From Hypoxylon rubiginosum (taxonomy: Eukaryota > Ascomycota > Sordariomycetes > Xylariales > Hypoxylaceae), in the NCBI GenBank assembly GCA_902806565.1, contig CADCXA010000038.1, forward strand, positions 115,213-179,212: 64,000 nucleotides of DNA, given 5' to 3'. The notes beneath the pieces were generated by a model. It searched no databases. It saw only the letters and a list, made by a program, of their open reading frames with translations, and was not told where the DNA came from. The position numbers were made by a program, and so were the translations under genes. Below, piece after piece: positions 31,320 through 61,580 of this stretch (positions are counted from its first letter, which is position 1; each line of letters opens with the position of its first letter).

Positions 31320-34300
31320 TATATACCTAGGTAAATATATTAAAATATATACCTTAATTAAAATGAAAAATAACTAGCGTTATTTTAAACTTATATATAC
31401 TTAATTTATATATAAATATATATATCTAAAAATATATACGTTTAATAAATATATAATATAACGGTTTTAATATATTTTATTAAGTAATTTTATCCGTTAT
31501 TTTTTAACAATAAAATAAAAGTCCCGTTATAAAAATATATTCCATTTATATTATATCTTTATAACTATAATTTAATTATAATTATAATTTAATTATATAT
31601 ATATTTATATATTTTATATATATATATATTAAGTTTAAATAAATAATAATTTTAATATATTATTATATACCTAAATATAAATCTAAGTAAAAATCCGCGT
31701 TATATATTATTATACGAAATTTATAATTATAAGTATTTATTAATATATATATTATTTTAAAACTTTAAAATTTATTTTTTTTTTTATTTTTAATAATTAT
31801 TTAAATAAACTATATAACGTTTTTTATATATTTTTATATAATATAATAAAAATTTATATTAAAAACTTAAAATAGTTTTAATTTAATATAATAATTTTTA
31901 TAAATCTTAAAATTTTTAATTTTTTTTAATTTAAATAGAAATTTAAAATTTTATTTATATTTTAAAATTATTATTTAATTTTTATTTTATTATTACTTTA
32001 AATATTTAATTAATATATATTAATCTCGTTATTTTAATTTAAGTTATTTTTATTTATTTAACTTTAATTAATTTATATATTAATATATAAAATACATGTT
32101 TATTAAAATTTATAATTATAAGTTTTTTTAATTAAATAAACTATTTAAATTAAACTATATAACATTAATTTTTTCTTTTTTAAGTTTTATTTTAAAGCGT
32201 TATTTTATAAATATAAAAGTTTATAAATTTCTTTAATTACTACTAATAAAAGTTTTTAATAAAATATTTAATTTTTTTATTAAATAAATAATTATAAGGT
32301 TTTTAAATTTAATGTTTTTTAATAAGTTATTTTTCTTATTTAATTAAGTATTTTATTTTTTTTAGGTTTTTTATAAAGTTTTTTATTTTTTTTATTTAAT
32401 AGTTTTTTATTTTAATTAAAATTATCTTTTATAAAATTTAATTAAAATTAAATAATATTTAATTATTAATACGATAAAATTTAATAAAAAAAATATAAAA
32501 TAAATTATAAATTTTCCAGCCTTTAAAAAATATAAATTTTATAATAATTAAAAAAATTACTTTTTAAATTTTAAAAAATTTTAATATTTTTTAGTTTAGC
32601 TTTTTTATAAGTTTTCTTGTTTTTACGTTTTTAATATTTAATATAATTAGTTGTTTTTTAATGTATTTAAAGTTTTTAATATGTTTTTTATTTATTTAAA
32701 TTTTTATTTATTACCGGTTTTACTTAAGGTATTTTTAGGTATCTTTTTAAATTTAAGTTATCTAATAAAAATAAAATTGGTTTTTTAGGTTTTTAAATGT
32801 TTTAAATAAAAGATTATATATTATAAAATAATAATTATAATTAATATAAAAAAATATTATATAAAAAAAAAATAAAATTATATTATTATAAATAAATTTA
32901 ACTGTAAAAAATAAATTTTTTTAGTTGTTTATTTTATAGTTAATAAATAATTATAAGTAAATTTTAAAAATTTAATTAAATTATTTAATTTAACTGTTAA
33001 TTTAAAAATAAAAAGTTATATTTATATAAAATTTAATATCTATTAACTTAAAAAAATTCTTTTATAAATATACTATAAATTTAAAGTTTTTATTAAAAAT
33101 AATATTTAATAGTATATTATATAGTTTTTAATATTTTTTAATAAAAATTTTAATAAAATTATTAGTTTTTTTCTTTTTTATTTTAAAAAAAAAAAAATAA
33201 ATTATTTTTATAAAAAAATTTATTATTATTTATATAAAATTATATTTATTTAATAATAGTAAATTTATAATAAAATTTATTATAATAATATATTAAGATT
33301 TATAATAAAGTTTTATAAACTAAAAAAAACTATAAAATACGTGTTTTAAGATTTTATTTTTTTAATATTTTAAATATTCTTTAATATATTTTTTAATTAT
33401 ATTTTTTAAGTTAAACCATTAAAAGTTATAAATAATTAACTTTATAGTTTTATTTATTCTTATATAACTAACAATATATATATTATACTTAGATTTTATA
33501 ATTTCTTATTATAAAGTTATTAATACTTATAAACGGTTCTTATAATAAAATAAATTATTTTATATCTTTATATCTTTTTTTAGTTAATTCTTTTATTTTA
33601 AATAAATAAGATTTTTTAATATAACTTTTTTAAGATTTTTTATAAACTCTAGTAATTATTATAATATTTTAAAATTATAAAGTTACTTTAATATAAATAA
33701 AATAACGGTTAAAATAATAAATATAATTTCTTATAAATACAAAAAATATTTTTTTTATAAAACTAAAATAATTAACTAGTTTTTAACTCCTTTTTTTTCA
33801 AAGCAATATTATAATAATTTAAATAAAATATTAACTTTTTTATTTAAATATCCTAATTAATAATTAATAATAAATTAATATAAAATAAGTTATTAAGTTT
33901 ATTAAGCTTATTTTTAATTTAATATTTTAATAATAATAAAATAAAAAAAATTTTAATAATTAAAATAAACTTTAATTTAATAATATACTCTTTTAAAATA
34001 TTATTTTTATTTCTTAAAAAAATTAATAATATTTAATAGTTTTTTATTATAGATTTTATAGTTTATTTTAACTAGGTTTAATTTTTAAAAATAAAATGTT
34101 ATAAAATAAAATTTCCTGGTTTTATTTTTTTAAAATAAAATTAATTTTATTATAAAGTTTAAAATGTTTATTTTAATATAAATAATTAAATTTAAATTAA
34201 AATGGGTAAAAATTAAAATGGTTATAAATTAATCCTTTAATATTTTAAAGGTAATTAATATTAACTTTATTTATCTTTAGTTTTTTTTATTTTCCTTATT

Positions 34301-37300
34301 AATATTTATTAAAAGTTTAATTATTATAAAAAAATTATAAATAAAATATTAATAAAAGTTTATAAATTTTATAAATTACTGGTATTTTTTAAAGTTAGTT
34401 AAATTTTCTTATTTTTAAATACTTTTAATTTTATTTAAACTTATAAATATATTATTAACTTTAATAATATATTTTAAAAATTTAACTTTTTAAATTTTTT
34501 AAAAATATTTTTTTAGTAATATAGTTAAATAATGTTTTATTAGTTATTTAAAAATTTTTTTTATTAAAATATTATATTTTTTTTAAGTGTTTTTATAAAT
34601 AAAGATATTATTAAAATAAATAAATATATTAATGTTAATTAAATTTTAAAAAATATTATTTATTATAACTTAAAAAATTATTAAAATATTAATAAGTTTA
34701 AAAAGTATTACTAAATATTTATATAAATTATATTTATATTTAAAAGTTATTTTTTATTTATCTTTTTCCTTAATTTATATAAAATTAAATTTAAACTTAA
34801 AATTAATTTTAATAAAAAATTTAATGGTTTTAAATTATATTTAAAATTTTATAATTAAAAAGATTAAATAATAAATTAATATAATAATAATATTAAGTTT
34901 TTAATAATTAATAATAAGTTATAATAAATTTTTTAAATTTATTTTTTTAATAAATATTATTAAAATAATATATAATAAAATAGATTTTTTAATTTTTCTT
35001 ATATTAATTATTTTTTTTAGTTAAAACTTTAAGGTAGATAATTCCTTTTTACTTATAATATAAAAAGGTTTTTAAAGAAATGTTTTTTTTTTATAAAAGT
35101 TTATAATATAATTTTAAAGTTAATAATTAAGGAATTATTATCCTGTTTTTTAAGTTATAATTAAGTAAAATTCTTGGAATTTCTTAAAAATGTTTTTAAG
35201 TGCTTTTTAAGTATCCGCTTAAATTATAACTGAGATAAAAAAAAGCGCTAATAAGTTTATTAAGATTTTATTTATATAGTTTTTTTTATAATATTTAAAA
35301 ATAAATTGGATTTTTTAAGTTTAAAAAAAAAAATAAACTAGTTAATATTATTTAAATTATTATTAAAAAAAAATAATATTATATTTTTTATTTAAATTAA
35401 TAAGTTTAAAATTAAAATAAGTAAAATAATTTTTTTAATATTATAATATAAAAGTTTTTAAATAAAATTTATTTTTTTATTTAAACATTAAAGCGTTAAA
35501 ATTTATTATTAATTAAAAATATTATTATTTATAAATAAGGATTTTTTATTAGTATGTTTTAAAAAAAAATATAACTGGTATATTATTTTTAATATCTATA
35601 AATACCTTTATTTAATATTCCTTATTATTATAAATAAATATTATTTTATAAATAAATTAACTTTTAAAATATAGTTTAAAAGTTAATTTATTAAAAATTA
35701 AAAACCTTTTATAATTTATAGTTTAATATATTAAAAAAAAGTATAAAAATTTATTAATATTTTTTATAACTTTATATATTTTTTTTAATTTTAGTTATTT
35801 AATAAATAAAATTTATTATAATTTTTATATTTTAATTAAAATAAATTTATTATTAAGTTATTAGTTTTTTATTAATATAATAAAATAACTATTTAAAAAT
35901 CTAAATTAAAGTTTTTTTTTTTAATAATTTTTTAAAAAAAAAACTTTATTAAAATTAAATTAATTTTTACTTTTTTTATAAGTGTAAAAGCTAATATTAT
36001 ATTGTTACTAGATTTTTACTTTATAAAAATAACTTTTTTTAAAGCTATAAACAATTCCTTTTTATTAATATTTTTTTTTATAAAATAAAATAAAATATTA
36101 TAATTATTTTTTTTATAACGTTAATATAAACACTTGTTCTTTTTATATTAATTAATATTCGCTTAATTAATTTTTTATAAAGTTTCTTTATTAAAAACTT
36201 AATATTTATTTTTAAAATTAAATTAATTATTATTTATTTATTAATTTTATTTTTTTAAAAATTAATTTTAATTAAGTTTAAAATAATTATCCTTACCATG
36301 AGATTAATAATTTAATTTTAATTATTTTATTATTAAATTAAATTTACTTTTTTTTAATATATTAAAGTTTATAAATATATTTTTATAGATTTACCTGGTT
36401 TTTTAAATAATATTAATAAATTTTTTATTATTATCCAGGAAATTTTTTTAATAAAAATATATTAATTTAATAATTTTATTTAATAAAATTTTAACAATAT
36501 AATTTTAAAAAATTATTTTAAATTATTAAACTAATTTATTAAAATCTAGTATTTTAATAAAATACTAAATTATATTTTTATAATATTTAAGCTTAGATAT
36601 TTTTTTTAAATTATAATACCTTTTTAAAAGGTTTTTAAAATGTTTTTTTAAAGTAAGTTTATAATTTATTTAAAAGTTTATAAGTTTTATTTACCTTATT
36701 ATTTATAATTTTTACTAATATTATATTTAAATCTTATTTATTAATAAAAACCTTATTTAATTAATATAATAATAATCCTTTAAAAAGTTTTTTATATATG
36801 TTTTTATATATAATTTTATTTTTAAATATTAAAATTAAAACTTAAAAAAGTTTTTATTATTATAAATAATAAGTTTATTAAAATATATAAAATTAATAAT
36901 AATAAAAGCGGGGTAAATTAATTATTTAAACGCTTAAACCAGTTTATTTTTTAATATAATTAAAAAAATTAATTTAATATATAAAATATAAAAAAATAAT
37001 AACCTTTATAAAAGTTTTAATGATAATTTATTTTTTTTATTATTAAAATTATCCAGGTTATTACTAGAATCATTAAAAAAAAATAATAAATTATCTTTTT
37101 TATTTCCTTTAAATATAAAAAATTTAACTTAAATAAAATTAAACTAAACCTAAATATTAATAGTAATCCTTTTAATTTAACTAGTTTATAAAGCTTAGGT
37201 AAATAATTAATTTTTTATTTTTACTTTTAAGTTAAAATATATAAATAAAAAGTAAATATTAAAAATAATATCAATTTAAATTAATTATTAAAAGTTTAAT

Positions 37301-38760
37301 TTAAATATAACTTATTTTTTTATACTTTTAAATACTAATTATATATTAATTGGTTAATTAATAATTAATTATTTAATAAATTTAATAAAAATGGTTTTAA
37401 TATATATTTAAAAATTTAATAGTTACTTTTAAAAAATTTAATTTAATTAAACTAAGTTAATATATTTTTAGGTAAATAATTTATTAATTTATAAGTTTTT
37501 AATAATAGTTTATTTAATAATCTTATCTTAAGTTTTTTTATAAATATTAAAATTAATACATAATAACTCTAAAATTAAATATTATTTTTAAACAACCTAA
37601 ATTAATTTATTAATTACGGCTTATTATATAATATTATTATTTATAAATTTAATAATAATCCCCTAAACTTATTATAAAAATACTTAACTAAATTATTTAA
37701 TTTAATGTTTAAAATTAATAATTTAAATTATTAATATTTTAATTTTTATATTATATATTTAAATAATAATATTATAAATTATATAAAAAGTGTTATAATT
37801 TTCATGGATTTTTTAATTTTTTTAATAAGTAATATTTATTTAAATTATTAAAATTTATATAATATTATAAAAGTTTTATATTTAAATATAAAATTATAAA
37901 ATTTATTTTAAAAAATTAATAATAATAATATTAAATATAGTAAAATCAAAGGTATTTTTTATAATTAGTTTATAATTTTAAGGTTAATAAAATATAAAAG
38001 TTAAATTTTTAAATTAAAATATTATTTTTATTTTAATAGGTTTTTAAATAATAAAAAAAATATTAAATTTAACAGGAAATTTTTTAAGTTTTTAACGAGG
38101 AAAAAATAAAAAAAACCTTTATTAATATTATTTATATAAAAAGTTAATTAATTAAAAGGTTTTTTTAACTAAAAGAATCTTAAATTTAGATTTTTTAAAA
38201 AATAAAATAAGCTTTTCTTATTTTAATAATTTTAAAATAAAATATAATAAAGTTATTAATAAAAGTAATAATAATATTAAATTATAAAAAAGTTACATTA
38301 AAATAATAATATAAGTTACTTTAAAAAAAATATCTCTTAATAATAATAAAAAAATATTACTTATTAAAAAAAAAAGTTTTAAATTATTAAAAGAAATTAT
38401 AAAATAATTAACTTAAAGTAAAAAAGTTTTAAAATATTTAATATTTTAAAAGTTTTTATTAATTATTTAAATTTAATATAATTTTTAAAAGAAGTAAAAA
38501 TTATTTATAATAAAAGTTTATATTAAAAACTTAAAATAATTTTAATTTAATATAATAATTTTTATAAATTTTAAAGTTTTTAATTCCTTTTAATTTAAAT
38601 AAAAATTTAAAACTTTATTTATATTTTAAAGTTACTACTTAATTTTTATTTTATTACCATTTTAAGTACTTAATTAATATGTGTTAGTTTTGTTATTTTA
38701 GTCTGAGTTATTTCTATCTATTTAACCTTAGTTAACTTACATATCAATATATAGGATATG
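31320..38760. repeat. RIP-degraded A+T-rich block 1
   Basis: Nearly every base is A or T, G and C occur singly, and no open frame above about 60 residues survives, against ordinary composition on both sides. The block encloses an LTR retrotransposon (31842-38828). Sequence normalises gradually from about 38,640 to 38,760, inside the right LTR. About 520 bp of degraded sequence lies left of the element. RIP is inferred from the LTR comparison, where differences are C-to-T and G-to-A. Confidence 0.85.
31842..32164. repeat. Left LTR of element 1 (heavily RIP-mutated)
   Basis: This is a direct repeat of 38506-38828. In the last 60 bases I count about two dozen differences from the right copy, every one C-to-T or G-to-A, with no insertion or deletion. 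Confidence 0.85.
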
Positions 38761-38828
38761 CGTTTACCAAAATCTGTAACCATGGGTTTCTCTAATCAGG
38801 TAAGCCACTCGGATCGAGCCGTGTGACA
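38506..38828. repeat. Right LTR of element 1 (partly spared)
   Basis: Its first half is as A+T-rich as the left copy. From about 38,640 C and G reappear, and the last 70 bases have ordinary composition. It ends GTGTGACA directly before the target duplication CACAG. Confidence 0.85.
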
Positions 38829-40242: not shown

Positions 40243-42959
40243 TTAGACTCGCCTTCTTTTTACCCGTCGAGTATTCCCGTCCAATACTTGTGTTACTTCC
40301 GCCTCGTCCGTGAGACGATCACCCAACAGTTTTAACACTTGCATCTTGTTGAAAGCCCAGTTGTAGCTAGAAAGGGTTGTTAGTTTACACAGAACATCCG
40401 AGAACAGAGTGAAGTGCTGCATGTGGCTTACCTTCGTCCAATGTCAACTATCCTTTGAACAACAATATCTCCTATGGCGGAGTTGTTGCTTGAAGCAGAT
40501 ATTAGACTAAATTGCGGGTCGTTGTTGATGCATTGCCTGACATAATGTTCCATCGCCGGCCTTATATTGCCGACTGTGCAATTAATATCTGTCCACGCGG
40601 TTGGGGCAGCCCAGTCGTCCAGCGATTGTCTGGTACGGAGCGAAACATTACCGGAAAGTAGCAGGTGGAAATGCGGAAAGTTTCTGCCAAGGATATCTCT
40701 TATTAAATTCAGGTAGAGATCTCGTTCGTTTATTTCGACGTGGTCCAGGCCATCAATGATCAAGTAGGTCTCTCCAGGCTGGGTCTCATTCGCTGCCGGG
40801 GGAGGATTTGGACAAAGTTGAATAAGGATCCGAATGAGAACATCGTGGAGTTCGGGAGCGGTAGGCGCCCTCGCCGGATGGAACCGCGTGCTTTCGGTAT
40901 ATAGCGCGCGGAGAGCTGGAAATACGTCGTTGGGCGGACATAGCTGGTCAATAACGGTACGGCAGAAAAAACTGAAGCCGTAGTCTTCGGAATCACATAA
41001 GAAATAAGCAAGAGAGTCTCGAGACCGTCCAAATTGTGACTGCCGGCAAGCCTGCCTCGTACTCTCGACGATAGACGAACAGAGCGTCGTCTTGCCGAAT
41101 GAGTGCCCACCTCCTATACGTACGAGGGACCTGTTATCGTCCCAGACTCTCGGCCTTCCTGAAACCGATTGAACAAGATCAAACGGTAACCGAACGTGAT
41201 CTAACGTAGCTCTTAGGACATCGGTTTGGTCGATGGGACCAAGCCAGGCGTTGACTAAGGCCCTCTCGCTTCGCTTCGGGATTTCGTAGACTACAACCAA
41301 AGTCATCGTTAGGATTCACCTCTGCCGCCATTTACCATCATCGGAGCAACGTACTGGTACCCTCGCGTGCCGCCCCTTCGCCCATCAAGTTCCTCAGCCA
41401 GTTGCTCTGCTCTCCAAAGTCCCTGCACGTAACAACATTCAACGGTAGTTTGGGTACTGGAATTTCCAATCCCTCTGCGAGTAGTACGTAATGTCGGGCA
41501 CCGAGGTCCTTATATTCCTCCCCGACCCACTGCGTGTATGAAAATATGTCCCGTTAGCATTTCTCCTTTGGTACTTGAGAATCATATAAATGGAAACACA
41601 ACAAGTTTTTGTACATACCTCCAAGAGCTTGCCGAGGTTTGGATCTCCTAGTCCGGCTCCGCTGCCAATGAACAGTATAGTCTTGTCGGTCAGTGTAGCT
41701 CTTAAGGTGTCCTGGACCACCTTGTCATTCACAACCGAGTAGTAGTCCCTCGTGGAGAGCACGACCTTTGCGGGGTTTTTCCAGGTGCCGTGAGGATGGA
41801 ATACGTATTTGTTGGTAGATCCTCGCCGCCACCTATACACACCCGCATCGTTTCCGCTGTCGACGGCCTCCAATCCGCAGTATTTCTCGATTAGGCCGTC
41901 GTAGTTCGTTGTCATCAGAGAAGCCCCCCTTCCGTGAAGAGCATTCAATACTTCAAGAATGTCTGGAAACGAGACGTAGTCGATTAAATTTTGGAACTCT
42001 GACCGTAACCAAGTCGCGTCTAGTGTACAAAATCGTGTCTGTTAGTAATTTATCGCACCCCAGTCTAGTAGAAGTGAGGCTTTTCCGGGATATGTCAAGC
42101 CAGAGTTGGACTTCAAGTGAACAAAGGAGTGGTTTCACATACTACAAAAGGTTAGCTATGGTTATAATTAACTAGACATGGGAGGGAAGTTGGGGAATCC
42201 AGGGTTGGGATGGGAGTATGACATGTCTGTATACATTATACATACCAAAGATCGGGGCGTTTACTCATTATATCCTGTATTCTATAGGCGGCATCAAGGA
42301 AATCGTTGGTGGTAGGATTATCAAGGTCTAGTAGTCGTTTTGCCTCCCTGATCTCCGCCGCGTGTTCTCTTGCAAAAGCTACGGCCTCTACTTCGATATA
42401 CTCTATTGCGCCATTCATAACCCCGTTCCAGCTCATTCGTTGCTTCTGCGAGGCTCTAACGGAATGGAGAGTTATTCCCGATCCGACACCTGGTGTGTAA
42501 GAGCGTGTCTGTTAGTAATTAATCCATTGCCTTGTATTCCAGAAAAATCGTGGCTCTTCCGTCAACCCTCCTAATATCGAGCCAGACTTGAAACCTCGAG
42601 AGAAAGAGGAAGCAAATTGTCCTACATACTATAAAGAGGTTAATTATAATCAACTAAGTGTCAAACGGAGATTGGACAAGGTCGGAGACGAGACTACGAC
42701 GTGTTTTTATCTATACGTACCATATTACCAGACGCCCGGCGTTCAGTTCTTCTCGGAGCCGTTTTACGCTCTCCTGCTGTCTTCTCTGGGCATTAAACTG
42801 CCGCCTCGCTAACCTGTTCTGTTCATCTTGTTCCATTTGGGCAATCCTAGCGGCTTCTCTTGCCGCCGCATCAGCTGCATCCTGACGCGCAATAACATTC
42901 ATAGCGCCTAGGAGATCCTGAGGCGACGGTGGCGCAGCAGCTGGGCCGGGTTGCGCCAT
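40243..42959 (-). CDS. SIR2-NACHT NLR-type protein (STAND NTPase with N-terminal SIR2-like domain)
   Basis: Six exons, 42959-42722, 42489-42247, 42019-41619, 41529-41355, 41290-40432 and 40366-40243, encode 679 residues. Residues 1-79 form an Ala/Glu/Arg-rich predicted coiled coil. The SIR2-like domain (about 75-350) keeps VGSGIT (81-86), TTNYD (197-201, Asn199), HPHG (235-238) and a second glycine motif, FIGSGAGLGDPNL, so the NAD-binding residues look intact. The NACHT-type NTPase (about 375-620) has Walker A GGHSFGKTT (413-421) and Walker B YLIIDGLD (528-535). The end is basic (RRVKRRRV) and no WD, ankyrin or TPR repeats follow. Known relatives are fungal NLRs of non-self recognition and bacterial SIR2-STAND anti-phage NADases. 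Two introns are twin introns; the 64-nt intron 41291-41354 fuses the SIR2 and NACHT frames, otherwise separated by TGA at 41340. Splicing is inferred, not tested. Confidence 0.8.
42020..42246 (-). other. Twin intron (stwintron, [D1,2] type) B in the NLR gene
   Basis: Same architecture as twin intron A. Exon 2 ends with T at 42247 and 42246 is the outer-donor G. The inner intron is 42245-42142 (104 nt; GTATGT, branch GCTAAC, acceptor TTTTGTAG). The next bases TATGTG restore outer donor GTATGT. The outer intron (123 nt after inner excision) has TACTAACAGACACG and ends ACACTAG at 42020. Exons join in frame as RPDL-Y-ATWLRSEF. Its sequence resembles twin intron A in several places, including the whole branch-site region. 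Confidence 0.8.
42490..42721 (-). other. Twin intron (stwintron, [D1,2] type) A in the NLR gene
   Basis: Exon 1 ends with T at 42722. Base 42721 is G, the first base of the outer intron. An inner intron follows, 42720-42629 (92 nt; donor GTACGT, branch region AATTAAC, acceptor TTTATAG). The next bases are TATGTAGG, so removing the inner intron makes G+TATGT, a perfect outer donor. The outer intron (140 nt after inner excision) has TACTAAC and ends CACACCAG at 42490. The exons then join in frame as LVI-C-VGSGIT. Read as one simple GT-AG intron, the frame is off by one and hits a stop within 11 codons. Confidence 0.8.
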
Positions 42960-45789: not shown

Positions 45790-48700
45790 ATTTTTTATAA
45801 AATCATTTACTTTTTTTCATTATATTTTAAAAAGATTAATAATTTATATAATTATATTAATTAAAAACGTTTTTTTAAAAAATTATTATAATAATTTTAA
45901 TTTTAATATTTTTAATATTAAAAAGTTTTAATAAATAAAAAATTATTATTAATAAATAATAATAAAAGTTTTTTTATATTAATATTATAATTTTAATATT
46001 TATTAAAAAAAAAACTTTTAAAATATTTATTTTATTTTTAAAAAATAAATTATTAATTAATAAAGTTTTTATAAAATAATATAAATAAAATTATAAATTA
46101 TAATTTTATATATATATTTTAATATATTATTATTTTATATATATAAAATATTAATTTAAATAATATATAATAATCTTTATTTATATAAGTTTAATAATAC
46201 CGCGATTTAATTTTACTTTATTTTTTTAATTTTTAATATATATATATTATAAAAAATATATATTTTATAATATTTTTATTATTTATATAAATATTAGTTA
46301 AATATATTAATATATTTATAATTAATATATTATTAATAAGTTTTTTATAATTAACGTTTATAATATTTTAATAAATTAATTAAATATTTATAGCTTTTAT
46401 AATTTAAAAAATATAAAAATTAATTAATTTTATTTTATATTTTATATATAAATTATATATAATATTAAAAGTAATTATAATATTATTTTATATTTTTTAA
46501 AAAGCTATATTATTTTAGATTTTTTTATTTTATGTTTTTTTATATATTATTTTACCGTTATATAATTTTAAAAAAACCTTTTTTTTTTTTTTTTAATAAC
46601 GTTTTATAAATATTATTATAACTTTTAAATTATTTATATTATATAATATAAATTTCATTATTAATTTTTTATAAATATAAAAACTTTTTATTAAAATTAT
46701 TTTTATAATTTAAATAAAATATATTATATATAATATAATAAAAATATTTAAAACTTTAAAAAATATTATTGATATTAATTATTTTAAATTATAAAAGTTT
46801 AATTATTTATTAAAAGTTATTTTTATTTAAGGTTTAATATTAATTTTATTTTTATTTTTTATTTAATTTATATTTATTAATATATTATAACGGTATTTAA
46901 TAAAATATTAATAATATAACTATTTATTATAACGTTAAAAATCTTAATTATATTATAAAAAAATAAAGCTGTTAAAAAAAAAATAATGTATTTTATTAGT
47001 TAAAACTAAATGGTTTTTAAGTTATAAAAAAATACGTATTTTAAAAGATTTTTATTTTTATTTATTTATAAACTTATAACTATTAAAAAGTTTTATAATT
47101 ATATTTTCTTAATTTTTTATTTTAAATAGTTTATAATAAATAAGTTGTTTTAAGTTATATATTAAATATATTAAAAAAAACAAAAAAAAAAAGGGTATTT
47201 AAACTAAAAATATATAAAAAATTAATAAAATAAATTTTATTTTTTAAATAAAATTTATTAATAAGTTTTATTATTAAACACTTTTTATTTATATAAAAAA
47301 TTAGTTATTAAAACTATTTTTTTTATATAAAAAATAATTAAAATTAAGTAGTAAATATAAAAAATATTATATTTATTTTTATAATATTTATAAATTATAA
47401 TAAATTTAAAATATAATAAAAATTATATTTATAATATAAATCTTTTTTATTAATTTTTATTTCTTTTTTATATATACTTTTTTATTATTTATTACTTTTA
47501 TTTAAAAAATAAAATAAATTTAAATTTTATTTTTATTTATTTTATTATATATTATAATTTCTTATTTAAATTATAAATAAAAAATTTAAGTTTAAATAAT
47601 TAGTAAAAAATTAAAAATTTTTACTAATATTTAAAATTTAATTAAATAATTAAGAGATATTAAAAATAATATTATTTATTATATTAATTAAAATGTTTAA
47701 ATTTTATATATAATTTTTTTTAATTTTTTTTAAAGAAACCTTTAAATTTTAAAATAAATTAATTTTAATTTAACTTTTAAAAAAAGTTATAAAAAAATAA
47801 TTTTATATAATATTAATAAAAATAAAATAAATTAACCAGTTAAAAATATAACTACTTATTTAAAAAATTTAATAAATAATAAAAAGTTATTTATATAAAT
47901 AATAAATATTTATAAATATTAAGAAATAATAACTTAATTAAATAAATATATTTAATAAAAAAAAGTAATTATTAAAATTTAATTTATAACTAAAGCTTTT
48001 TTTTTAATTATTATTATTTAAATTTAAATAATTATATTAATTTATAAATTATTTTATAAGTATAAAAATTAACAATTTAAGTTTATATAAAAATTAATTT
48101 TATAATTTTTTTTTTAATTTAAATAATAAATAAATATATATATATAAAAAATTATAATATATTTAAAAATAAATAAAAAATTAATAAAAATAAAAAATTA
48201 TTTATAATAAAAAAATAAAAATAAAAATAACTTATAATAAATTTGTTATTAAAAGTAAGCGGTATTTATATATAATTTATTCTTTAAGTTTAAAAAAATA
48301 ATTAATATTAATTTATATTTAATAAAAAAGTTATAATTTTAATTAATATTTTTTTTTTATTAGTAATAAAAAATATAATTTATTAAAATCTATTATTTAA
48401 AATAACTATATATATATAACTATAAAATTTACTTTTTTAAAGGTTTTTTATTTTAATATAAAACTTAAAAAAGCTTTTAATAATATTTAACTTTATATTT
48501 TAAATTTTATAATAATAAAAGTTAATATAAATATATATTTTATTTTATTAAAAAATCTACTAAGGATTATTAATATATTTTATTTTAATTTATAAATTTT
48601 ATTAAAAAAAAAAGGTAGTAATTTTTTATTTAACTTATTAAAATAAATATTTTATATAAAAAAAAAAATACTAATATAATTTTTAATAACTATATTATAA

Positions 48701-49822
48701 TAAAAATATTTATATTTATTAAATAAATAAATAAATCTAGATTAAATATAAATATTTTTATAATATATTTTATTTTATTTATTATTTTAAATATTTAGTG
48801 GTTATTTTTTAATAATATAACTAATATATTTTTTATAAAAAATAAGTAAACTAATATTTTTAAATTTAACTTATTTATTATTTAAAATATTTTAATAAAT
48901 ATATTTACTTTGTTTTTTTATATATATTTAAAAATATATTTAAATAAAAATATAAACATTTTTTAACTACGTTTTTTTATAAATATAAAATAAATTTAAA
49001 GGTTTATTATATATTATATAAAATTTAATAATATAACGGTTTTATATTTATAATTTAAAAATATACTTTTAAATTATATTAACTTTATATTTAATATATT
49101 TATATTTTTTATAGTTTATTAATTATAATATAAGTAATTTAATAAACTAATAAATTAAATATTTAATATTTATATTTATTAATTAAAAAATATAATATTT
49201 ATAAATTGTTTTTAAAACTAATAACTATAAATATAAAATATATTTTTCTTTTTTATATTTATTTTAAATATATATTTTATATTATTATAAATATATTTAT
49301 TTATAGGTTTTAAAAAATATAATAAAAATAACTTTTATATTAATTTAAACTAATAAAAATCCCCGTAAAAAATAATAATAAATATACCTTTAAAATATTT
49401 TTTATATTAATTTTATATCTTTTAAAATTATTTATAAATTTTATTAAAATTTGTTTTATTTATTATATTATATTTATTTATAATTAAAATATTTATTTAT
49501 TTTTAAGTAGTTTTTTTTTTAAAAGGGATTTTTTAAAACTTATTATTAAATAAGTTTATTATAAAATAAATAATTATTTTATTTATATATATTTTTATAA
49601 ATTTTAATATAATTATAAGTTTAATTTATTTATAAGTATTTTTATTTTTAAAGGTTTTAATTAAAAATTTAATTATAATATTTTTCTTAGTTTTATTTTC
49701 CTTATTAAAGTAAAATAATAACTAATAATTATTAAGGTTTAATAAATTTTTTATATTATTAAATAATTTTATTAATTGTTATATTTTTATTTTATTTAAA
49801 TATTAAAAAATAATATATAAAA

Positions 49823-50035
49823 TGTTGGTAACTTATAATTATTTAAATAGCTGTAAAATATAAAATATATAATAAAAATAACTGGTGAAATATTAAAAAA
49901 TATTTTAAAAATATAATATTAATATTTATAATATAGTATTTAAATTAGGTAGATATTTTATAAGTTTTTTTATAATAGTAATAAATTATAAGATTTTTTT
50001 TATAAGCGTTTAAATAATTACTTCTTGGTTATATA
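49823..50035. repeat. Left LTR of element 2
   Basis: A direct repeat of 55956-56168. The surviving G/C bases are mostly G, so this copy lost mainly C on the plus strand. Confidence 0.7.
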
Positions 50036-52000
50036 GTAGCTTTACTTATATTTTTATTATTTTTATTAAAAGAAAATAAGGTATTTATATGTTTTTTTAT
50101 ATTAAAATATTAAAAATATATAATTTTTATTAAATAAAAGTAACGTATTATAATTAGTAGATTATAAGAATAAATTAAGAAATAAAACAAATTGTTAATA
50201 TGTTTTATTACTAAGTAAATTTAATTTTTATTAACTTTAAAAAAAATAAATAAACTTATATAAATTAAGGATAATATCCGCTTTTATAAGGAAAATATAT
50301 AGTAATAAATAATTAAATAAACTAAGAAGTTATAACTAGTTAAAATTATTTTAATAAAAGTTATTATATTAAATATATTAATAAAATTTATAATATTTAA
50401 TATAAAACTTAAATCTTTTATAAAATCTTTTATAATATTTATTAAAAAACCCACTAAAAATCTAATTAATTTAAATTTTAATAAGAACTTTATTAAATAG
50501 TTTATTAAAGTACCATTTAAAATTATAAACTACTTTTAAATAATAAAAGTTCTTAAAAAATAAAAATAATTAATTAAACAATTAAAAAAATAAATTAATA
50601 ATATTAATAATAATTAAAAAAAAAAAATTTAATAAGCCATTAAATAAATAATAACAAAGAAATTAAAAAGGAAAAAGAAAAAAAAATCCAAATCCCTATT
50701 AAATAAAATAATAAACTTATATAAAATATTATTAACTAATAAACTTTATAAATTAAAACGTAATAAAATATCTATTATATTAACTTTATTTCTTATTAAA
50801 ACAAAATTAAAAACTTAAAAACCTACTTAAAAACCATTAAAAACTTAACTAAAAGTTTTATTTTTAAAATTATTTAATTTTAACTTTAAACTTAATAATA
50901 AAACTATAATTATAAAGAAATTTTCTTAATTTTTATATTAAAAACTTTTAAAAAAGTTTTTAAAAACGTTAAAACATCCTTTTAAATCCAATTTTAATAC
51001 CAATTTTAAATCTAATTATAAGTTTTATAAACTATAAAAACCCTATAAATTAAATTATAAGAATAACAAGAAATTAAATAATAAACATAGTAAAAAAAAG
51101 CTATTAATTAAAAAATCTTTAAAATAATTTTAAAAAAAATATAAGAATTTTAATTCCTTGGATTTTAACTTGTTATTAAGTTTAAACTTATTTAATTTAA
51201 ACTTATATAATTCCGATTTAATTAACTTTTATTTTTATTAAAAAAAATATAAAAAATATAAAAAGAAATTTTCTAAAAAAAATAAAAAGTATAAATCCTT
51301 TAATAATTAAATAAAACTTAATTAAAAGTACTTTAATTTTATATTAAATAAGAAAAATTACTTAATAAAAATTAGTAATTAAGATATTTATTAAAAAGCT
51401 TTTATATTAAACTTAAAAAAAATTAATTATAAAAAAGATAAAAAACTTATTATTATTAATAAATTAAACCTAGTAGTAACTATTTTATATATTTATAAGT
51501 AACAATTATTAAACTTAATTAATAATATAAAAAAAAATTTTAAAATACTTAAAATTTTTAATAAAACATATGTTTTTTTAAGTAAAATTTGTTAATAAGA
51601 GCTTTAAAATAAATTTTTATAAAAAAAATATAAAAAAAGTAATTTTATTATTTATATTTTTAAATAATAATTTATATTATATAATTATATAAATATAAAG
51701 TTTAAATTTAATATTAATTAACTAATTATAATGTTTATTATAAGTGTAAAAAATAAAATAACTAATTAAATTAAATAAATTTAATTATTTTTATATAAAA
51801 ATAAATTTATTTTATAAAAAATAATAAATAATTTTATTAATAAATTCTAAGGTAAAATCGGAAAAAATAACCGCTAAAACAATAATAATAATAGTAAAAA
51901 TAACTTTAATATTTATAATATTTAAATAAATAAAAAAAGGTTTAAAAAACCATTTAAATTTAAATATTTACCAAGTTATAACTTAGATAAAAACCTTTTA

Positions 52001-52042
52001 TATTATAATTATAAAAAATATAGTTATATAAAAAAAAGTTAC
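52001..52042 (+). pseudogene. Degraded zinc-knuckle-like remnant of a gag frame (tentative)
   Basis: In one frame the codons TAT, TAT, TAC and TAT stand at the C, C, C and H places of a C-X2-C-X4-H-X4-C spacing, between lysine and asparagine codons. TAT and TAC are what Cys codons become by G-to-A, and TAT is what a His codon becomes by C-to-T. In such A+T-rich sequence this could be chance. Confidence 0.3.
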
Positions 52043-55000
52043 TTTAAATTTAATAAAAAAAAAAAGAAAAAATAATAATAAAACTTATTTTTAAATACTA
52101 TAAAAAAATAAATAAAAAGTAATAAGTTATAATAATAATTAACTTCTACTTTTGAAAATTTAATAAATAATGATGGTAATTTTTATAGTAGAGAAGTAAT
52201 AAATAACTTGGTTAATAAATATAATAAATATTATTTTTAAAAGAATTTAAGATATATAGTTTTAATAATATAACTAATAAAATAAAATATATATTATAAT
52301 ATTATTAAGTTATTCTTTTAGATTTTTAATATAAATTTAAATTATTATATTAAGATTATAATAAAATAATAACTGTTACTTGATATAAAATTTAATATTT
52401 ATATTATTAATAATAAAAAAAATTTCATTTAAAAAATTATAATAAATATCTTAAATAAAAAATACCTTATTTATATAGGTAATAAATTAATATTAATTAT
52501 AAAAATAAACACAGTTTATTTTACTTTAAAAAAATATAATAATAAAAGGTAATTTATTATTTTAAATTTTATAATTTTTATAAAATATTTTTTTATTAAG
52601 ATTTTCTTAGAAAATTTATTATATAAAATAAGTAAATAAATTAAAAGAAAGTATATTTAAAACCTTAACCATATAATATTTATAAAGTTTAATATTTTAA
52701 AATATAGTTTCTTTTTTTTATTATTTAAAAAATAAAAACTTATATTTTTAAAGTTGTTTACTAGTAATTTAAACAACCAATAAAAATATAAGTTAATAAT
52801 AACATAAAAAATAAATAATTTAAAAAAAATATTAAAAAAATCTTTAGCTATGTTAATTTTTAAACTTATAAATAAAGTTATTTAAAAGTTAATATTTTAA
52901 TATTATTATCTATACTATCCCAGTATAAAAAGAATAAAATAATCTATTAAAATAATTATAAATATTAATTTAAACTTAACTTTTATTAAACTGTTATTTT
53001 ACTATATATATAATCAAGCTAAAATCATAAAAATACCTTTAAAAAACTTATAGTTACATGTAAAATATTTAAAAGAAATTACTTAATATAATATAAGTTT
53101 ATTAAAACCTTAATTAATAAATAAAAACCGTTATTTCATAATAATTATTAATAATTATAATAAATATAAACATTTTAAAACTTATATTATAAAAAATAAA
53201 ATAAGAATTATTATAGAAATATATTTTTATTACAAATATAAAGCCTTATAATATTTATTTATAAAAAAAAATAATAGTAATAAAAAATTACTAGTACTAC
53301 GTTTTAATAATAAAAAAAAATTCAATATAAACCTTATTAAAAAAACTTACTAAAAAATAATAATTAAACTAATCATTTTTATATTAAAAAATTAATATTA
53401 AAATGGAGTTTTTAAATAATTTATTAGGTTTATTTAAAATTTAATACAAATAATTTATATTATTATAAATATATTTATATATTTTTAAAACGATATAATA
53501 AAAACAGTTATTTATATAATTAACCGTATAAATTAATTAATTATAAAAAACGTTATTTTTTATAAAAAATATATAAATAATTTTAAATTTTATAAGTTAT
53601 ATAAACTTAATAATATATATTTAAGGATTATTAAAAATAAATATTTTATTTTTATTAATAAAAAATCTAGGGATATAATGAAAAAAATAAAAGTTTAAAA
53701 AGTTAAAGGAATTTTATTTAGTTATTAAAATTAATATAATTATTAAGTATAGTTTATTAAAAAAAATAAATATTTTAATACCTTTTATATTATTATATAA
53801 AAATTTATAAAAGATGATAATAATATTTTAAACCTGAAAAATATAGTTAAATTTTTATTTAAATATATATAAAAAAAGTTTTATTATTAAAAAAAAACTA
53901 TTAAGGTAAATATATAAAATAAGAATAAAAATATTATTAAAAAAAATATTATAAATAATAATATAAAGTTAAAGCCTAAAAAAAAAAAAAAATTTAAAAA
54001 GAAATAATTAATTATATAATATTATAAAGTTTTAAACAAGCTTAATATTATTTATAAAATGTTATAAAATATAAATAATATTTAAAAAAATAAAAATTAC
54101 TTATTAAAAAACATGTTTAAAAATAATTTTAATAATTTTATTTTTATAAATAATAATAATTCACTTATTATAATATATTTAAATATATATAAAGTTTTAA
54201 TATATTATTTTATTAATATTAAAAAGGAAAATAACATTAAAAACGTTATGTAAGATTTCCTTGATATAATATTTAAAATTTTTAAACTTTTTAAAACCAA
54301 TATAAATAAACTTTTATTTAAAAAAGTTATAAATAAAGTAAAATAAGAGTTATAAATATAAGTTATATTTAAAAAAATCTATAAGAATTTTAAAAAAGAT
54401 ATATTTAAGTTTAATCCTTTTTTTAAAGTTATTTATAAGTACCTAATTAACATTAAATAAGTTTTAAAAAAAAAATATTTATTTAATAAAAATTTTAATA
54501 AGTTTAAAACCTATATTTATATAAAAGGATTTATATAAAAAAAAAAAGTTAATTATAATAAAATTATAATTATAATTGTAAAAGTTATAACCTGGTGTAT
54601 ATTAATAATTTTAACCGTAACATATAAATAAAATATCTTATAAATAAATTTTATAATAATATATTTTAATAAAAACTTAAAAAAATATATTTTTATAAAA
54701 CTATTCTTTATATTAAAAAAGTATTTTAATGTTTATTTAAAAGAATAAAAAATTTATTAATTTAATAAAAGTAAAATTATTAAGCTAATAAATTTTTTTT
54801 ATAAATTAAAATAAACTAACTACGCTTAATAAACTAAAATTAAAAAACTACTTAAAATATAAAATTATAAACTTTTAAAAGTAAATAATATTATTTATTT
54901 TAATTAAAAGATAAAAGATATTATAACCTTTTATATTAACAATTTTCTACTATTTAATATAAATATTTAAAAATTAAAAAACCTAATAAAAAATATTAAA

Positions 55001-55955
55001 AAAAACATTTTTATTATAAATTTTAATAACGTTAATTAATTCTTAAAAGTTTAAATTATTCAATTTACTTATAATAAAAAGATTTATTTTAATTAGTAAT
55101 AATATTTTAAAAAAGTATTAAAAAGTAATAAGTTTAAAAATTATAAATATATAAATATATTTTTTAAACCTAAGAAACTAAACTATATAATTTTTAAAAA
55201 TCGTAATAAAAAAGCAAATAAAAGAAAGATCTATAAATATATATTTTTAATAAAAAAAATTAACTTTATAATATATATAACTAGGTTAAATATAAGTTAT
55301 ATTATATTAATTTAAATATATTATATAAGTAATTTTTTATTAGAATATTTTAAAAAAATCAAGCGTATTATAAAATATTTAAAGAAATTAACTAAAAAAA
55401 TAATTTAATATAAAAAGTTAATAAAAAAATATAAGCATTAGATATTTAACAATATTAAATTATATAAAGTTATTAATATTAACTATATTAAAAATATTAA
55501 TATAATAAAATTAATAACTAAATATATTTTCTTTTTAATAAGCGTATTTATAATATAGTTATTTAAATTATAAAATATAATAATATATAGCTTTATTAAA
55601 ATAAAGTATATAATTTTAATTATAGTTATTATAAAAACAATTTAAATATATAACTTTTTAAAAAAACTTTAACTAATATTTAAAAAACCAATTCCACTAA
55701 TAAATAATAATATAATTATAATCACTTAATTATAAAAAACTATTATAAATAAATAAAAGTGTTATATTAAAAAAAATTATTACTATATTAAATAAAAAAT
55801 TATTAAAAACAACATTAAAATAAATTATATAAAAAACAAGTTAAATCCAACTAATAAATTTATAAAACCATTAAAAAAATAAAACTATAAACAGTTTTTA
55901 AAGTTATTTAGTTTAAAAAATCGCAAATAGCTTTATATATTTAACTAAAAAAACA

Positions 55956-56168
55956 TATTAATAACTTATAATTACTTAAATAACTATAAAACATAAAATA
56001 TACAATAAAAATAACCAATAAAATATTAAAAAATATTCTAAAAATATAATATTAATATTTATAATATAGTATTTAAATTAAATAAATACTTTATAAATTT
56101 CTTTATAATAATAATAAATTATAAAATCTTTTTTATAAACGTTTAAATAACCATCTCCCAGTTATATA
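55956..56168. repeat. Right LTR of element 2
   Basis: A direct repeat of 49823-50035. The surviving G/C bases are mostly C, so this copy lost mainly G on the plus strand. The differing G/C bases of the two copies are mostly complementary in kind, as strand-wise RIP would produce. Confidence 0.7.
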
Positions 56169-59100
56169 AAACTATTAATTATTTATAATTTAAACTATTT
56201 TATTTTATTAAAATACTAGTAATATTTATTTAAAAATAACTATAATAATACTTAATTATAATTATTATTAAATATATTTATCTTTTATATTAATTAAATT
56301 ATATTATAAATTATAATATAAAATCCTTATTTAAATTTATAAAATCCTTATTTTTAAATTTATAAAACGTTAAATTTATTTATAAATTAATATTTATATT
56401 TATATTTAATATTAATATAAAAACATTTTATTATTATTTATTATTTAATTTTTTAGTTATATTTATAAATATTTTTTAATTTAACAATAAAATTTTTATT
56501 TTTTATTTTTATATTTAAATTATAATAACTTATTTAATATATATATTATTTTTTAATAAATTACCGGTTTTAATATTAATATTATTAACTATTATATAAT
56601 AATATTCTAATTTTTTTTAACGGAAAATTTAATAGTTTATAATAGTTTTTTATATAAAACCCTTATTATAACTATAAAATAAATAGTTTAAATATAAATG
56701 TATTTTTATATTATATTTATTTTATAATATTTTATATGTTTTTAAAGAAAATAAATAATTATTAAAACTTTTTTATATTATTAACTAATTTATTATTTAT
56801 ATTATTTTTCTTTTAATATTATAATCTTTATTATTTTATAAATACTTTATATTTACCTTATTATTTTAATTTATATAAACATTTTATACTTTTATATTTT
56901 ATATAATATTTTTTTTAGATTTTTTTATAAGATTAAAATTATTATTAATAAATTATAAATAATAATTTAGATTTTTTTTATAGGTTTTTTAAATCTTTAA
57001 AAACATCTTAAAATCCTTATTAAAAAAGTTTTTTTATAAAATAAAAAAGCTAAAATAAAATATAATATTTTAATTATATATAAAGTTTTTTTTAAAATTT
57101 AAAAGAAATTTCCTTATTAAAAAAAAAATTTAAATTTTATTCTTAGTTATTATTTTTTAATAAAATTTAATGGTAATTAATTTATTAATAAATTTAATAT
57201 AATTAACTATTTATTCTTTTATTTAATTTATTTTATAGTATGTTTATATATAAAATTTAATAATTATATTAATAAAAAAAACATAATTATATAAATATAA
57301 ATAATAAAATATAAAACTATAATATTAATATATTTTAAAAATACTTAGTTTAATATTTATAATTTTATTTAAAAAAATAAATGGTTTTATAATTAACGTA
57401 TTATTTTTATTATTAATAATTAAAACTAGTTTTTATAAATGTTTTTATTAATTTTATATTACTTAATATAAGAACTTATAATATATTTAGTGTTATTAAA
57501 ACTTAAAGTAGTAAAATATATTATAATTTAAAATATAATTATATATATTAATAAAAAAAAGCTTTTTTTTTAAAAAAACCTTATTAAAAATTTAAATTAT
57601 TAGATTTTATATTATTTTATTTTAGTTTTTATTATTAATAAAGTTTAGTAACTTTATTAAAATATTAAAATAAGTAATTAAAAAAGTTAGTTTTTAATAT
57701 ATAAGTATTTTTAACTTAATAATATAATTTATAATATAATAAAATAAAATAAAAGTTTATATTTTTATAAAAATTATAATAAAATTATAATTATAATATA
57801 AAATAATTACTATGATTTTATTTTATTATATATAATATAAAAAACAATATTAAATTTATAATATATTATTATTATTAATATATATTTATTTAATTAGTAG
57901 TTAAAATTATTTAAAATAATATCGTTTTATTATATAATAGTTTTTTCTTATTTTTATTTTTATTTTAATATATTTATAACATATAATATTATATTTATAT
58001 TTTTATAAAATAATCGTTATATATTATATTTATTATTTTTATTTAATTATAAAATAATTTAAATTTATTTTTAATATATTTTTTAGTTATAAATAATTAT
58101 TTATTTTATTTTAAATTATTAATTTAAAGATATTATAATTAAAATCTTTTTAAAAATATTTATTAATTTAAGTTAAAAATTGTTATATTTTTTTAAGTTT
58201 ATTAGTTATAATATTTATAATTAGATTTTTAATTTTTATATTATTAAAAAACTATAAAAAGTTATATAAATAAAAGGTATTTTAATTATTTATTTTAATA
58301 GTATTAAAATATTAATATATTAAATTAAATATATTATTTATAATATTAATATAAATAATTTTTTAAAAAAACATTTTTATATAACTATAAAATTAATAAA
58401 TAACTAATATAAAATCTTAATTTATTTTTTTTAATATAAGCAGGCGTTTTTTTAATAAACATTTATTTAATTATTATTAAATTTATTATAAATAGTGTAA
58501 GTTATAAAAGTATTTATTTATTTTAATATAAATAAATAATAATAAATCGTTTAGGTTTATTATAAATTAAATTACAAGTAAATTATATTAAAATATTAAA
58601 TTTTTTATTATATTATATTAATAAATTCTTTTTTTATTAAAAAATAGTTATTAATAGTTAAATATAGTAATTTTTTTTAGTAATTTTAATATATTTAAAT
58701 TATTAATTAGTTTATATTTTTATAACTTTTAATTAACTTATAATAATTTTTTATAAATAATAAATTTAAATAAAATTTAAATTTAATAAAAAAAGGATTT
58801 TTTTATTTAAATTTAATTAATTTTTTTATTATTATTTTTTATAATTTAATTAAATATAAGAAAAAGAAAAATAAGATAAGTTATAATAACGTTATTATAT
58901 TAATATAATTTAATAAAAGCTTATATTTTTAAATTAAAACTTTATTTTAAAATATTGTTTTTATTAAATTATTATTTCTTATTTAATGTTATTAAACCTT
59001 TTTATTTATAAAAAAAGATTTTAATAAATATTTTTATAAAAAAATAAGAATCTTATATAATTATAAATTAATTTCCTAAATATATTTATAAGTATAGTTA

Positions 59101-61269
59101 ATTTTTTATAGTTTATTATTTTATTATTTTAAAATTAAAGTTATTATTTAACTTTTTTATAACTAGCGGTATTTTTATTATATAAAAAGATTTTTAAATA
59201 AAAAGTGTTTTTTTAACGTTATTAATTTAATTATTACTAAATAAAAAAAAGTTAAATAAGCTAGTTATTATAAATAACTTAGGTTTTTATTTTATATTAA
59301 TAAAAATATCTATAAATAATTTATTAATAAAAGGTTTATTAAAAAAAAAACGTTATTTATTATAATTTTTTTTTAATTTTAAATTATTTATACCTAGTTA
59401 TTTTTATTAATATTATTATTATTTAAAAGCTTTTTTATAAAGTATAAGTTTTTAGTTGTTTTATTAAGTTTATTAAATTTATTTATTATCGCTTTATTTT
59501 TAACTTATTTGTTTTTATTTTTATTAATATTAAATATAAGTAGTTAATTATTTTACGGTTTTTTATATTAAATTTAATATATATATTATATATTATAATA
59601 TTTTAATAAATATAATTTTATTTAAATCTTTTTATATATTTTAAAAGTTATTATTTATATTAATATTAAAATATAAATAATTATTTTTTATTAATTATTA
59701 TAATGTTATTATTATAATAAATTTTTAAAAACTTAAATATAATAATAAGTTTTTTATTTTTAACTAATTAAAGTTATATTATAAAATATAAATATCGCTT
59801 ATAATATTTTTTAAATTTTTAAATAGAATTTTTATTATAGTTATTATATTATTTATAAAAATTATTATATAACTTATAATTTTATATTAAAAAATATTAA
59901 AAAGTTATTTAGTTTTTAAATTTAAAAATAACTTAGTGATTATAATAAAAACTAATATAATAATTAAAAATCTTTTTTTTAATAGTTATAAAACTTTAAT
60001 AATAAAAGAAAATAAATATATATAAAGGTTTTAAAATATTATTAAGCGATAAATAATTAAGATTTTTTTATATTTAATATTAATAATATATTTTTTATAT
60101 ATAATTATTTATATTTTTTACTAATATAAAAAATAATTTATATAATTAAGTTAATATAAATATTAAATAGAATTAAAAAAAAGTAATTTTTTAAAATAAA
60201 TTAAAAGTTATAATAAAAATAAATTTTATATATAAATTATTAATTTATTTAATAAGTATTATATAAAATAAAAACGGTATTAGTTTATAAATAATTTATT
60301 AAAATTATAAATATTAAATAAAAAGTTATAAATATAAAATGTTTTATTTTTAAAATTTATTAACTTTAAAAATAATTATTAAATAAAAACGTTTATTTTT
60401 TTATTAAATTTATAGTTTATAGTTATTAAAAGATTATTAATATATTTTTAATATTAATTAAATCTTTTTATATTTTATTTTAATTTATTTAATAGATTTA
60501 TTATATATTAAATAAAAAGTATAGTTAAATTATTTTAAAAAGTAAAATATATATTTAAAAAAAAAAACTAAAGAATTAAAATATAATAAAAATTAAAAAG
60601 ATTATATTATTTTTATAAGTAAAAAAGTTATATTTATATGTTTATATAAATAATCTATAAAAAAAAAAGTTAATATTAATATAGTAAATAATAATAAAAA
60701 AGTAATAATAAAAAAAAAAGATTTTAATAATAATTTAATAATTTTTAATTAAATAAATAAGTTTTAATTAATAAATAACATTAAATATAAAATATATAAA
60801 AAGTTTTTAAATAAAATACTATAAAAAGAAAAATAGATTTTTTAAATATATAGTTTAATATAAAAAATATTATATATTATAATAAAAATAATTATATTAT
60901 TAGTTTATAAAAATTATTATATATTTTTATACTTATTAAAAATATTATTATATTAAACGTTTTTTTAATAACTTATTGTTTTTATTTATTTTAGTTTTTA
61001 TTTTTTTTTATAACTTATATTATTTTTTTTTTCCCTTTTTTTATTTTTTTTATTAAATCTAAGAAATATATTTTTTTTATTATTTTTTACTAGTTTTTAA
61101 AAACGGTTATTTTTTTTATTACATTATATTATTATTTATTAATATAAATAAAATGTTTAAATTTTACTTATATATAAAACTAATAATTTTAATATTATTA
61201 ATTTATATAAATATTAAAAGTTTATAAATAAAAAATAATTTAATAATGTTAATTTATTAAAAATTACCA

Positions 61270-61580
61270 GGTTATTTATATAATAATATTAAAATTATTT
61301 ACTTTTATATATTATATTATTAAAAATGTTATTAATTTATTATTTAAAAATATTAAATTAATATTTCTTTATATTTTAATATAAATTTTATAAACTTTTT
61401 TTTAATATTTTAAAACTAAAAATAATTATAATTTTTAAATAGTTTTAACTTTTTTTATTAGTTATTAAATTATTTATATAATAGTGTTAAAAAATTACTT
61501 ACTTTTATATTTTACATTATTAAAAATTAAATTTCTAAGAATATTAAATTAATATTTTCCTTTATTTTAATATAAACTTA
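61270..61580. repeat. Local direct duplication inside block 2
   Basis: A segment of about 115 bp starting near 61270 recurs starting near 61471, with shared text such as TTACTTTTATAT and AATATTAAATTAATATTT and RIP-type differences. It may be a tandem unit or part of an LTR. Confidence 0.5.

Follow-up and report, generated by a model that had tools for sequence, protein, structure and literature searches.

Two putative [D1,2] spliceosomal twin introns of a diverged subfamily, and a cropped intron from a one-step family, in one SIR2-like gene of Hypoxylon rubiginosum

The closest described systems are the sister [D1,2] spliceosomal twin introns (stwintrons) of Hypoxylaceae and Xylariaceae reported by Fekete et al. 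(2021, 2022, 2025; PMC8469720, PMC9024468, PMC12403724), in which an internal intron lies between the first and second bases of the donor of an external intron. According to these papers, two-step excision has been confirmed for 31 of the 36 stwintrons of Hypoxylon CO27-5 (PMC8469720), five such stwintrons are counted in Hypoxylon rubiginosum (PMC8469720; Table 1 of PMC12403724), RNA support is reported for stwintrons of this species (PMC12403724), and the branch element is almost always 19 nucleotides (nt) from the acceptor (PMC12403724), while terminal symmetry is tied to recent spread. In the same sources, a 676-residue SIR2-like gene of CO27-5 carries a stwintron at its second intron position and a cropped relative at its third. 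Here, a 64,000-nt stretch of H. rubiginosum DNA (contig CADCXA010000038.1, positions 115,213 to 179,212; hereafter the window) was analyzed together with the genome (48,274,338 bp, 70 contigs), and a SIR2-like gene of 679 residues was identified whose first two introns, denoted B and A, can with high confidence be assigned to [D1,2] stwintrons of an old, diverged subfamily, which probably belongs to a superfamily spreading in Hypoxylaceae. The gene and the two units are located as follows, where coordinates without a contig prefix are positions of the window.

40243..42959, minus strand: gene for a protein with SIR2_2 and NPHP3_N (NACHT-like) domains; six-exon model, 679 residues plus stop
42490..42721, minus strand: putative stwintron B (intron 1), 232 nt; interrupts codon 80 in phase 1; [D1,2], readable too as [A2,3]
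42629..42720, minus strand: predicted internal intron of B, 92 nt; GTACGT...ATTAAC...TAG, with full ends GTACGT...TTTATAG
42490..42628, minus strand: predicted external intron of B minus its first G (42721); TATGT...TACTAACAGACACG...CAG, end CACCAG
42020..42246, minus strand: putative stwintron A (intron 2), 227 nt; interrupts codon 161 in phase 1; [D1,2] only
42142..42245, minus strand: predicted internal intron of A, 104 nt; GTATGT...GCTAAC...TAG, with ends GTATGT...TTTTGTAG
42020..42141, minus strand: predicted external intron of A minus its first G (42246); TATGT...TACTAACAGACACG...TAG, end ACTAG

A first-pass annotation had proposed these elements, reading both introns as [D1,2] stwintrons whose frame is fixed at SIR2 residues, and they were present on the minus strand where it had placed them. 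The order of parts is alike in the two units, which consist of a lone G following the exon (ending ATAT 5′ of B and CTTT 5′ of A), a full internal intron, TATGT..., the external branch site TACTAAC, and an acceptor. Each unit starts with GGT. Its external donor is interrupted by the internal intron after G1 and resumes with T2, and a donor, a branch site, and an acceptor can be read for both nested introns in A as well as in B. Among 2000 shuffles, a strict pattern of a branch site, AG, and a TAYGT junction deep inside the unit turned up at a frequency of 0.3% for A and 0.05% for B, and a loose pattern for the nested junction at 1.15% and 0.7%, respectively. By eye count, the branch element is 18 nt from the acceptor in both units, and not at the 19 nt of the published sister stwintrons. 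Units A and B are in the same phase and are separated by an exon of 243 nt.

Removal of the whole of B gives ATA TGT GTC GGA TCG GGA (ICVGSG), removal of the whole of A gives CTT TAC GCG ACT TGG (LYATW), and the gene reads 679 residues once both units are gone. When the G is retained, a stop appears 10 residues past the junction codon of B and within the junction codon of A. Judging from this frame and from homologs, a correct messenger RNA (mRNA) requires G1 to leave with the unit. Six homologs of the 679-residue protein were found and five were aligned, P0004 being left out. The Daldinia grandis protein (P0003) is gapless across both junctions (GRLVICVGSGVTL; RPDLFAGWL), junction A is covered without gaps by P0002, P0003, and P0005, and a profile of the homologous proteins was aligned through the A junction to FAM118B, whose structure is solved. 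At the level of sequence, the architecture and the frame of the two units are established, and the first-pass reading is upheld on both. If A and B were instead simple GT-AG introns of 226-231 nt removed in one step, the gene would be a pseudogene or would contain compensating frameshifts; G-retaining one-step mis-excision has been observed in RNA of related species (PMC12403724). The stops described above, the 679 codons that are otherwise open and conserved, and the nested signals seen in both units and in a third unit described below (L002) make such one-step introns very improbable here. The protein model of H. texense (P0001) skips the stretch encoded between the two units and restarts at the codon split by A, while the models of P0002 and P0005 start just 3′ of B. 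We infer that these gaps represent gene models that failed near such introns, which are a trap for gene finders, as the residues lost from the H. texense model illustrate.

For the preferred stwintron structure, the spliceosome would take out the internal intron first (42720-42629 in B and 42245-42142 in A), the lone G would then join TATGT to generate the external donor GTATGT, and the external intron would be removed second. The base 3′ of the A acceptor is A, for which the reverse order fails. In B this base is G, because of which B is readable as [A2,3] too; excision of the external part first would restore an acceptor (...ATA+G) and lead to an identical mRNA. From its sequence, B is predicted to be both [D1,2] and [A2,3] as these terms are used in PMC8469720, a double reading that the first-pass annotation had missed.

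The first-pass annotation had also described A and B as alike, which was substantiated by alignment. Identical bases numbered 144 of 215 (~67%) between A and B, 147 of 208 (~71%) between A and L002, and 140 of 205 between B and L002, with both the internal and external parts aligning. L002 is a 210-nt unit on contig C24 within a transporter-like gene, recognized by eye, whose frame continues only with the whole unit removed. The A-B score was 379, compared with a mean of 114, a standard deviation (sd) of 17.1, and a maximum of 196 for 500 dinucleotide shuffles; local scores were 15.5 sd (A-B), 22.7 sd (A-L002), and 14.8 sd (B-L002) above shuffles, and over two shuffle tests the A-B relatedness was 15-18 sd. 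In a control with 1928 window segments of 232 nt from either strand (none starting at 41.9-42.8 kb, and 34.0-38.8 kb left out), A gave a mean of 89 (sd 21), with scores above 163 only from segments overlapping A itself, and B gave a mean of 94 (sd 18) with a top score of 201. The A-B resemblance is hence more than chance, and alignment establishes A, B, and L002 as homologous sequences. In the phylogenetic tree these three form one starred clade (100/99), inside which B groups with L002 on a branch that is not starred (92/75).

The search of the genome for further copies, anticipated by the first-pass annotation, gave one, since A was paired with L002 (71%) in another contig; in the DNA searches with A, B, or L002, B was paired with neither of the other two, and searches with two fixed patterns returned known units only. 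Similar copies at unrelated gene positions are consequently recognized by DNA search for A and L002 and by alignment for B. The recent duplication of the intron unit that had been suggested did not hold. A recent local copying of one unit inside the gene would account for the full-length homology, the same phase, and the mere 243 nt of exon between A and B; against it stand the ~67% identity with several indels, the closer match of A to L002, and the grouping of B with L002, and we regard it as highly unlikely. Based on that identity, the nearness of A to L002, the tree placing, and the lack of terminal inverted repeats in all three units, the kinship of A and B appears to be old, and not that of a fresh local copy. 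The three units would then constitute one old, diverged subfamily.

Two further groups of introns were found in the genome, for which the names family I and family II were coined in this analysis. Family I, obtained by a search with the published near-terminal repeats, consists of five close units on C29, C31, C55, C56, and C59, a size that fits the published count of five for H. rubiginosum. The published 5′ repeat pattern gave 25 matches, 7 of them assigned to the families, compared with 5 for its reversed control, and a longer 5′ pattern gave 25 compared with 2; the 3′ pattern gave 7 matches, three of which belong to family I, compared with 8 for the reversed control. By frame, four of the five units read as [D1,2], and a Pfam domain (Sugar_tr, AMP-binding, or GH45) lies across the junction in each of the three of these four that were tested. 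The Pfam junction tests covered the readings favored here. In L060 (C29:707477-707679), also of family I, an A replaces the G before the donor, so that it is no plain [D1,2] unit. The end repeats of the five units gave z-scores of 4.3-10.1 with 40-nt arms; three units carry complementary NTIRE-10 by the present reading, compared with two H. rubiginosum units having fully complementary repeats in PMC12403724. Against shuffles, the similarity to family I was z 1.8-7.5 for A and 4.2-7.6 for B. As far as the available parts of the published work go, A, B, and L002 appear to lie outside its count of five.

Family II comprises related GT-AG introns, mostly of ~180 nt, found by genome searches at 17 or more places, which include the third intron of the SIR2-like gene.

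41530..41618, minus strand: intron 3, 89 nt, ordinary GT-AG, located after codon 294; cropped member of family II
C38:44374, C11:179537, C27:280461, C53:385029, C59:103375, C59:107671, C59:763298, C8:413654: places of family II introns
C34:45111, C34:556027, C19:143041, C25:2471570, C50:483632, C31:1766422, C43:120287, C30:81927, window 41530-41618: further places of family II introns

Sixteen of the 17 places were read, C30:81927 being left out. The 15 units besides intron 3 are 116-200 nt long, and in 13 of them the reading that stays open longest over the junction is that of one-step GT-AG splicing; for two of these 13 (L044 and L048) the one-step reading was the only one available, and for L047 the longest frame is not its P450 frame. 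For L043 and L055, length favors another reading; L043 is settled as one-step because its DUF1996 match crosses the junction in that reading, and in L055 the Pfam match starts just past the junction. These last two are DUF1996 genes that hold family II introns at different positions. A Pfam domain spans the junction in six of the seven family II translations tested, the base before the donor is G in 13 of the 15 units, and end inverted repeats reached z ≥ 3 in 10 of the 15. Intron 3 matched the unit C38:44374-44574 in two pieces, namely positions 6-37 (32 bases, 94%) at the 5′ end of that 201-nt query and positions 134-182 (49 bases, 86%) towards its 3′ end. Its z-scores against the 15 units were 3.3-13.1, and in the tree it is located among family II beside the C38 unit (86/82, not starred). 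Its own end repeats gave z 2.6 with 40-nt arms and 1.3 with 44-nt arms, and its fold z −1.45. These alignments establish that intron 3 belongs to family II, of which it is a cropped member: it is canonical and retains the two ends of a longer member of family II, not of A or B, as expected for a type-2 cropped sister intron. The first-pass annotation had not noticed that this intron belongs to a repeated family. Family II looks new, as it is not described in the available parts of PMC8469720, PMC12403724, and PMC9024468, and the same sources apparently contain no equivalent of intron 3 as its cropped member.

One family II intron, L046 (C59:107671-107852), is the sole interruption of a gene for a luciferase-like monooxygenase of 446 residues. 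Along its whole length, this host gene shows an 80% match to Rhizobium plasmid DNA, and its product aligns without gaps to a Rhizobium homolog (446 versus 446 residues, 357 identical). The G preceding L046 is also found in the bacterial gene. If the gene is of bacterial origin, it acquired its intron with no base added or duplicated, and L046 seems, on this comparison, to be a seamless insertion. A type-2 cropped intron is reported for CO27-5 in a 447-residue gene of the nitrilotriacetate monooxygenase family (PMC8469720), and we infer that the two genes are orthologs.

A wider superfamily would be founded on the similarity of A and B to family I and to family II, and several results weigh against it or against the stwintron assignment. 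B shows weak similarity to family II (z −0.9 to 5.5; A, z 1.3-7.3), and the similarity of A and B to both families may come in part from shared splice signals. Direct similarity of intron 3 to A, B, or L002 was not detected in the shuffle test (z −0.4, 1.1, and 0.1). Terminal inverted repeats were absent with 40-nt arms (A, z 0.7; B, −1.0; L002, −0.3) and with 55-nt arms (A, 0.4; B, 0.2), and so were the complementary NTIRE-10 of the Hypoxylaceae sister stwintrons; A and B fold no better than shuffles, and no signal emerged when all three units were tested for self-complementarity and folding. Of the six homologs found, P0003 alone extends over junction B. The weak link of A and B to family II is the reason why our confidence in the overall explanation is high and not complete. 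In that explanation, introns 1 and 2 are [D1,2] stwintrons, the subfamily of A, B, and L002 probably lies within a stwintron and intron superfamily spread in Hypoxylaceae, intron 3 is a cropped member of a one-step family that probably belongs to the same superfamily, and spread would occur by copying of the intron sequence.

The 676-residue gene of CO27-5 is probably the ortholog of the 679-residue gene, judging from the published description. Introns 2 and 3 might then be old, inherited by common descent with those of CO27-5 (HCOc164A and HCOc164B), only the copies elsewhere being recent, an idea that adds to the above explanation and does not exclude it. The near-equal protein lengths, the stwintron at the second position and the cropped member at the third in CO27-5, and the H. 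texense model that restarts at the codon split by A favor common descent; against it, the authors consider the positions of 27 such introns to be new. On balance we lean slightly towards common descent. More tentatively, and held back by the same weak link of A and B to family II, all three consecutive introns could derive from one superfamily containing stwintrons of two subfamilies and the one-step family of 17 places, the latter born by loss of the nested center, with the SIR2-like and the Rhizobium-type monooxygenase genes seemingly hit in two Hypoxylon species. If this is true, the introns have a greater age than has been claimed, or else certain genes are repeated targets. The origin of introns is an old open question, and stwintrons, cropped forms, and one-step relatives stand here side by side in one genome, which makes the proposed path from a stwintron to an ordinary spreading intron testable in a single species.

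The host protein had been called an NLR (NOD-like receptor). Pfam gave SIR2_2 (E 7e-19) and NPHP3_N (E 4e-11) above the cut-off, while NACHT fell below it and no repeat domains were seen, so the NLR label holds in part, and the full arrangement of an effector domain, NACHT/NB-ARC, and repeats that defines an NLR is not found in the 679 residues. FAM118B, ThsA, and DSR2-type SIR2-like proteins were the top solved relatives by profile comparison. A protein search of the genome gave six matches, each an exon of the gene itself, and no second gene copy was found among the best candidates scored. The gene-bearing island is flanked by blocks of ~5-10% G+C at about 31500-38800 and 46000-64000 of the window, whose end is the end of contig C38.

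A and B are of the kind already published by Fekete et al. (2021, 2022, 2025), whose reports of related stwintron families in Hypoxylaceae the first-pass annotation had correctly anticipated; they resemble the sister [D1,2] stwintrons (PMC8469720, PMC9024468, PMC12403724) in architecture, size, fungal family and species, and the occurrence of sequence-related copies in unrelated genes. A related pair within one gene, which had been considered notable, is present, although a precedent of two sister stwintrons is published for the multicopper oxidase gene of Hypoxylon EC38. Unlike the published sister stwintrons, A, B, and L002 form a diverged subfamily lacking terminal symmetry. Intron 3 is similar to the type-2 cropped sister introns in joining the 5′ and 3′ parts of a longer member into a canonical GT-AG intron, and its 89 nt are close to the 93 nt of the published examples, whereas its closest relatives are one-step introns of ~180 nt. 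Compared with the gene of CO27-5, the present gene likewise has a stwintron as its second intron and a cropped intron of a repeated family as its third, and has an extra stwintron as its first. Like introners (Gozashti et al. 2022, PMC9860276, the main text of which does not contain the word Hypoxylon), these introns are sequence-similar and occupy many unrelated gene positions; unlike introners, A and B are nested, and the single site for which an intronless homolog was compared shows no duplicated or added base. What this locus adds to the known systems is a diverged stwintron subfamily, a third intron in cropped form, and a one-step family of 17 places.
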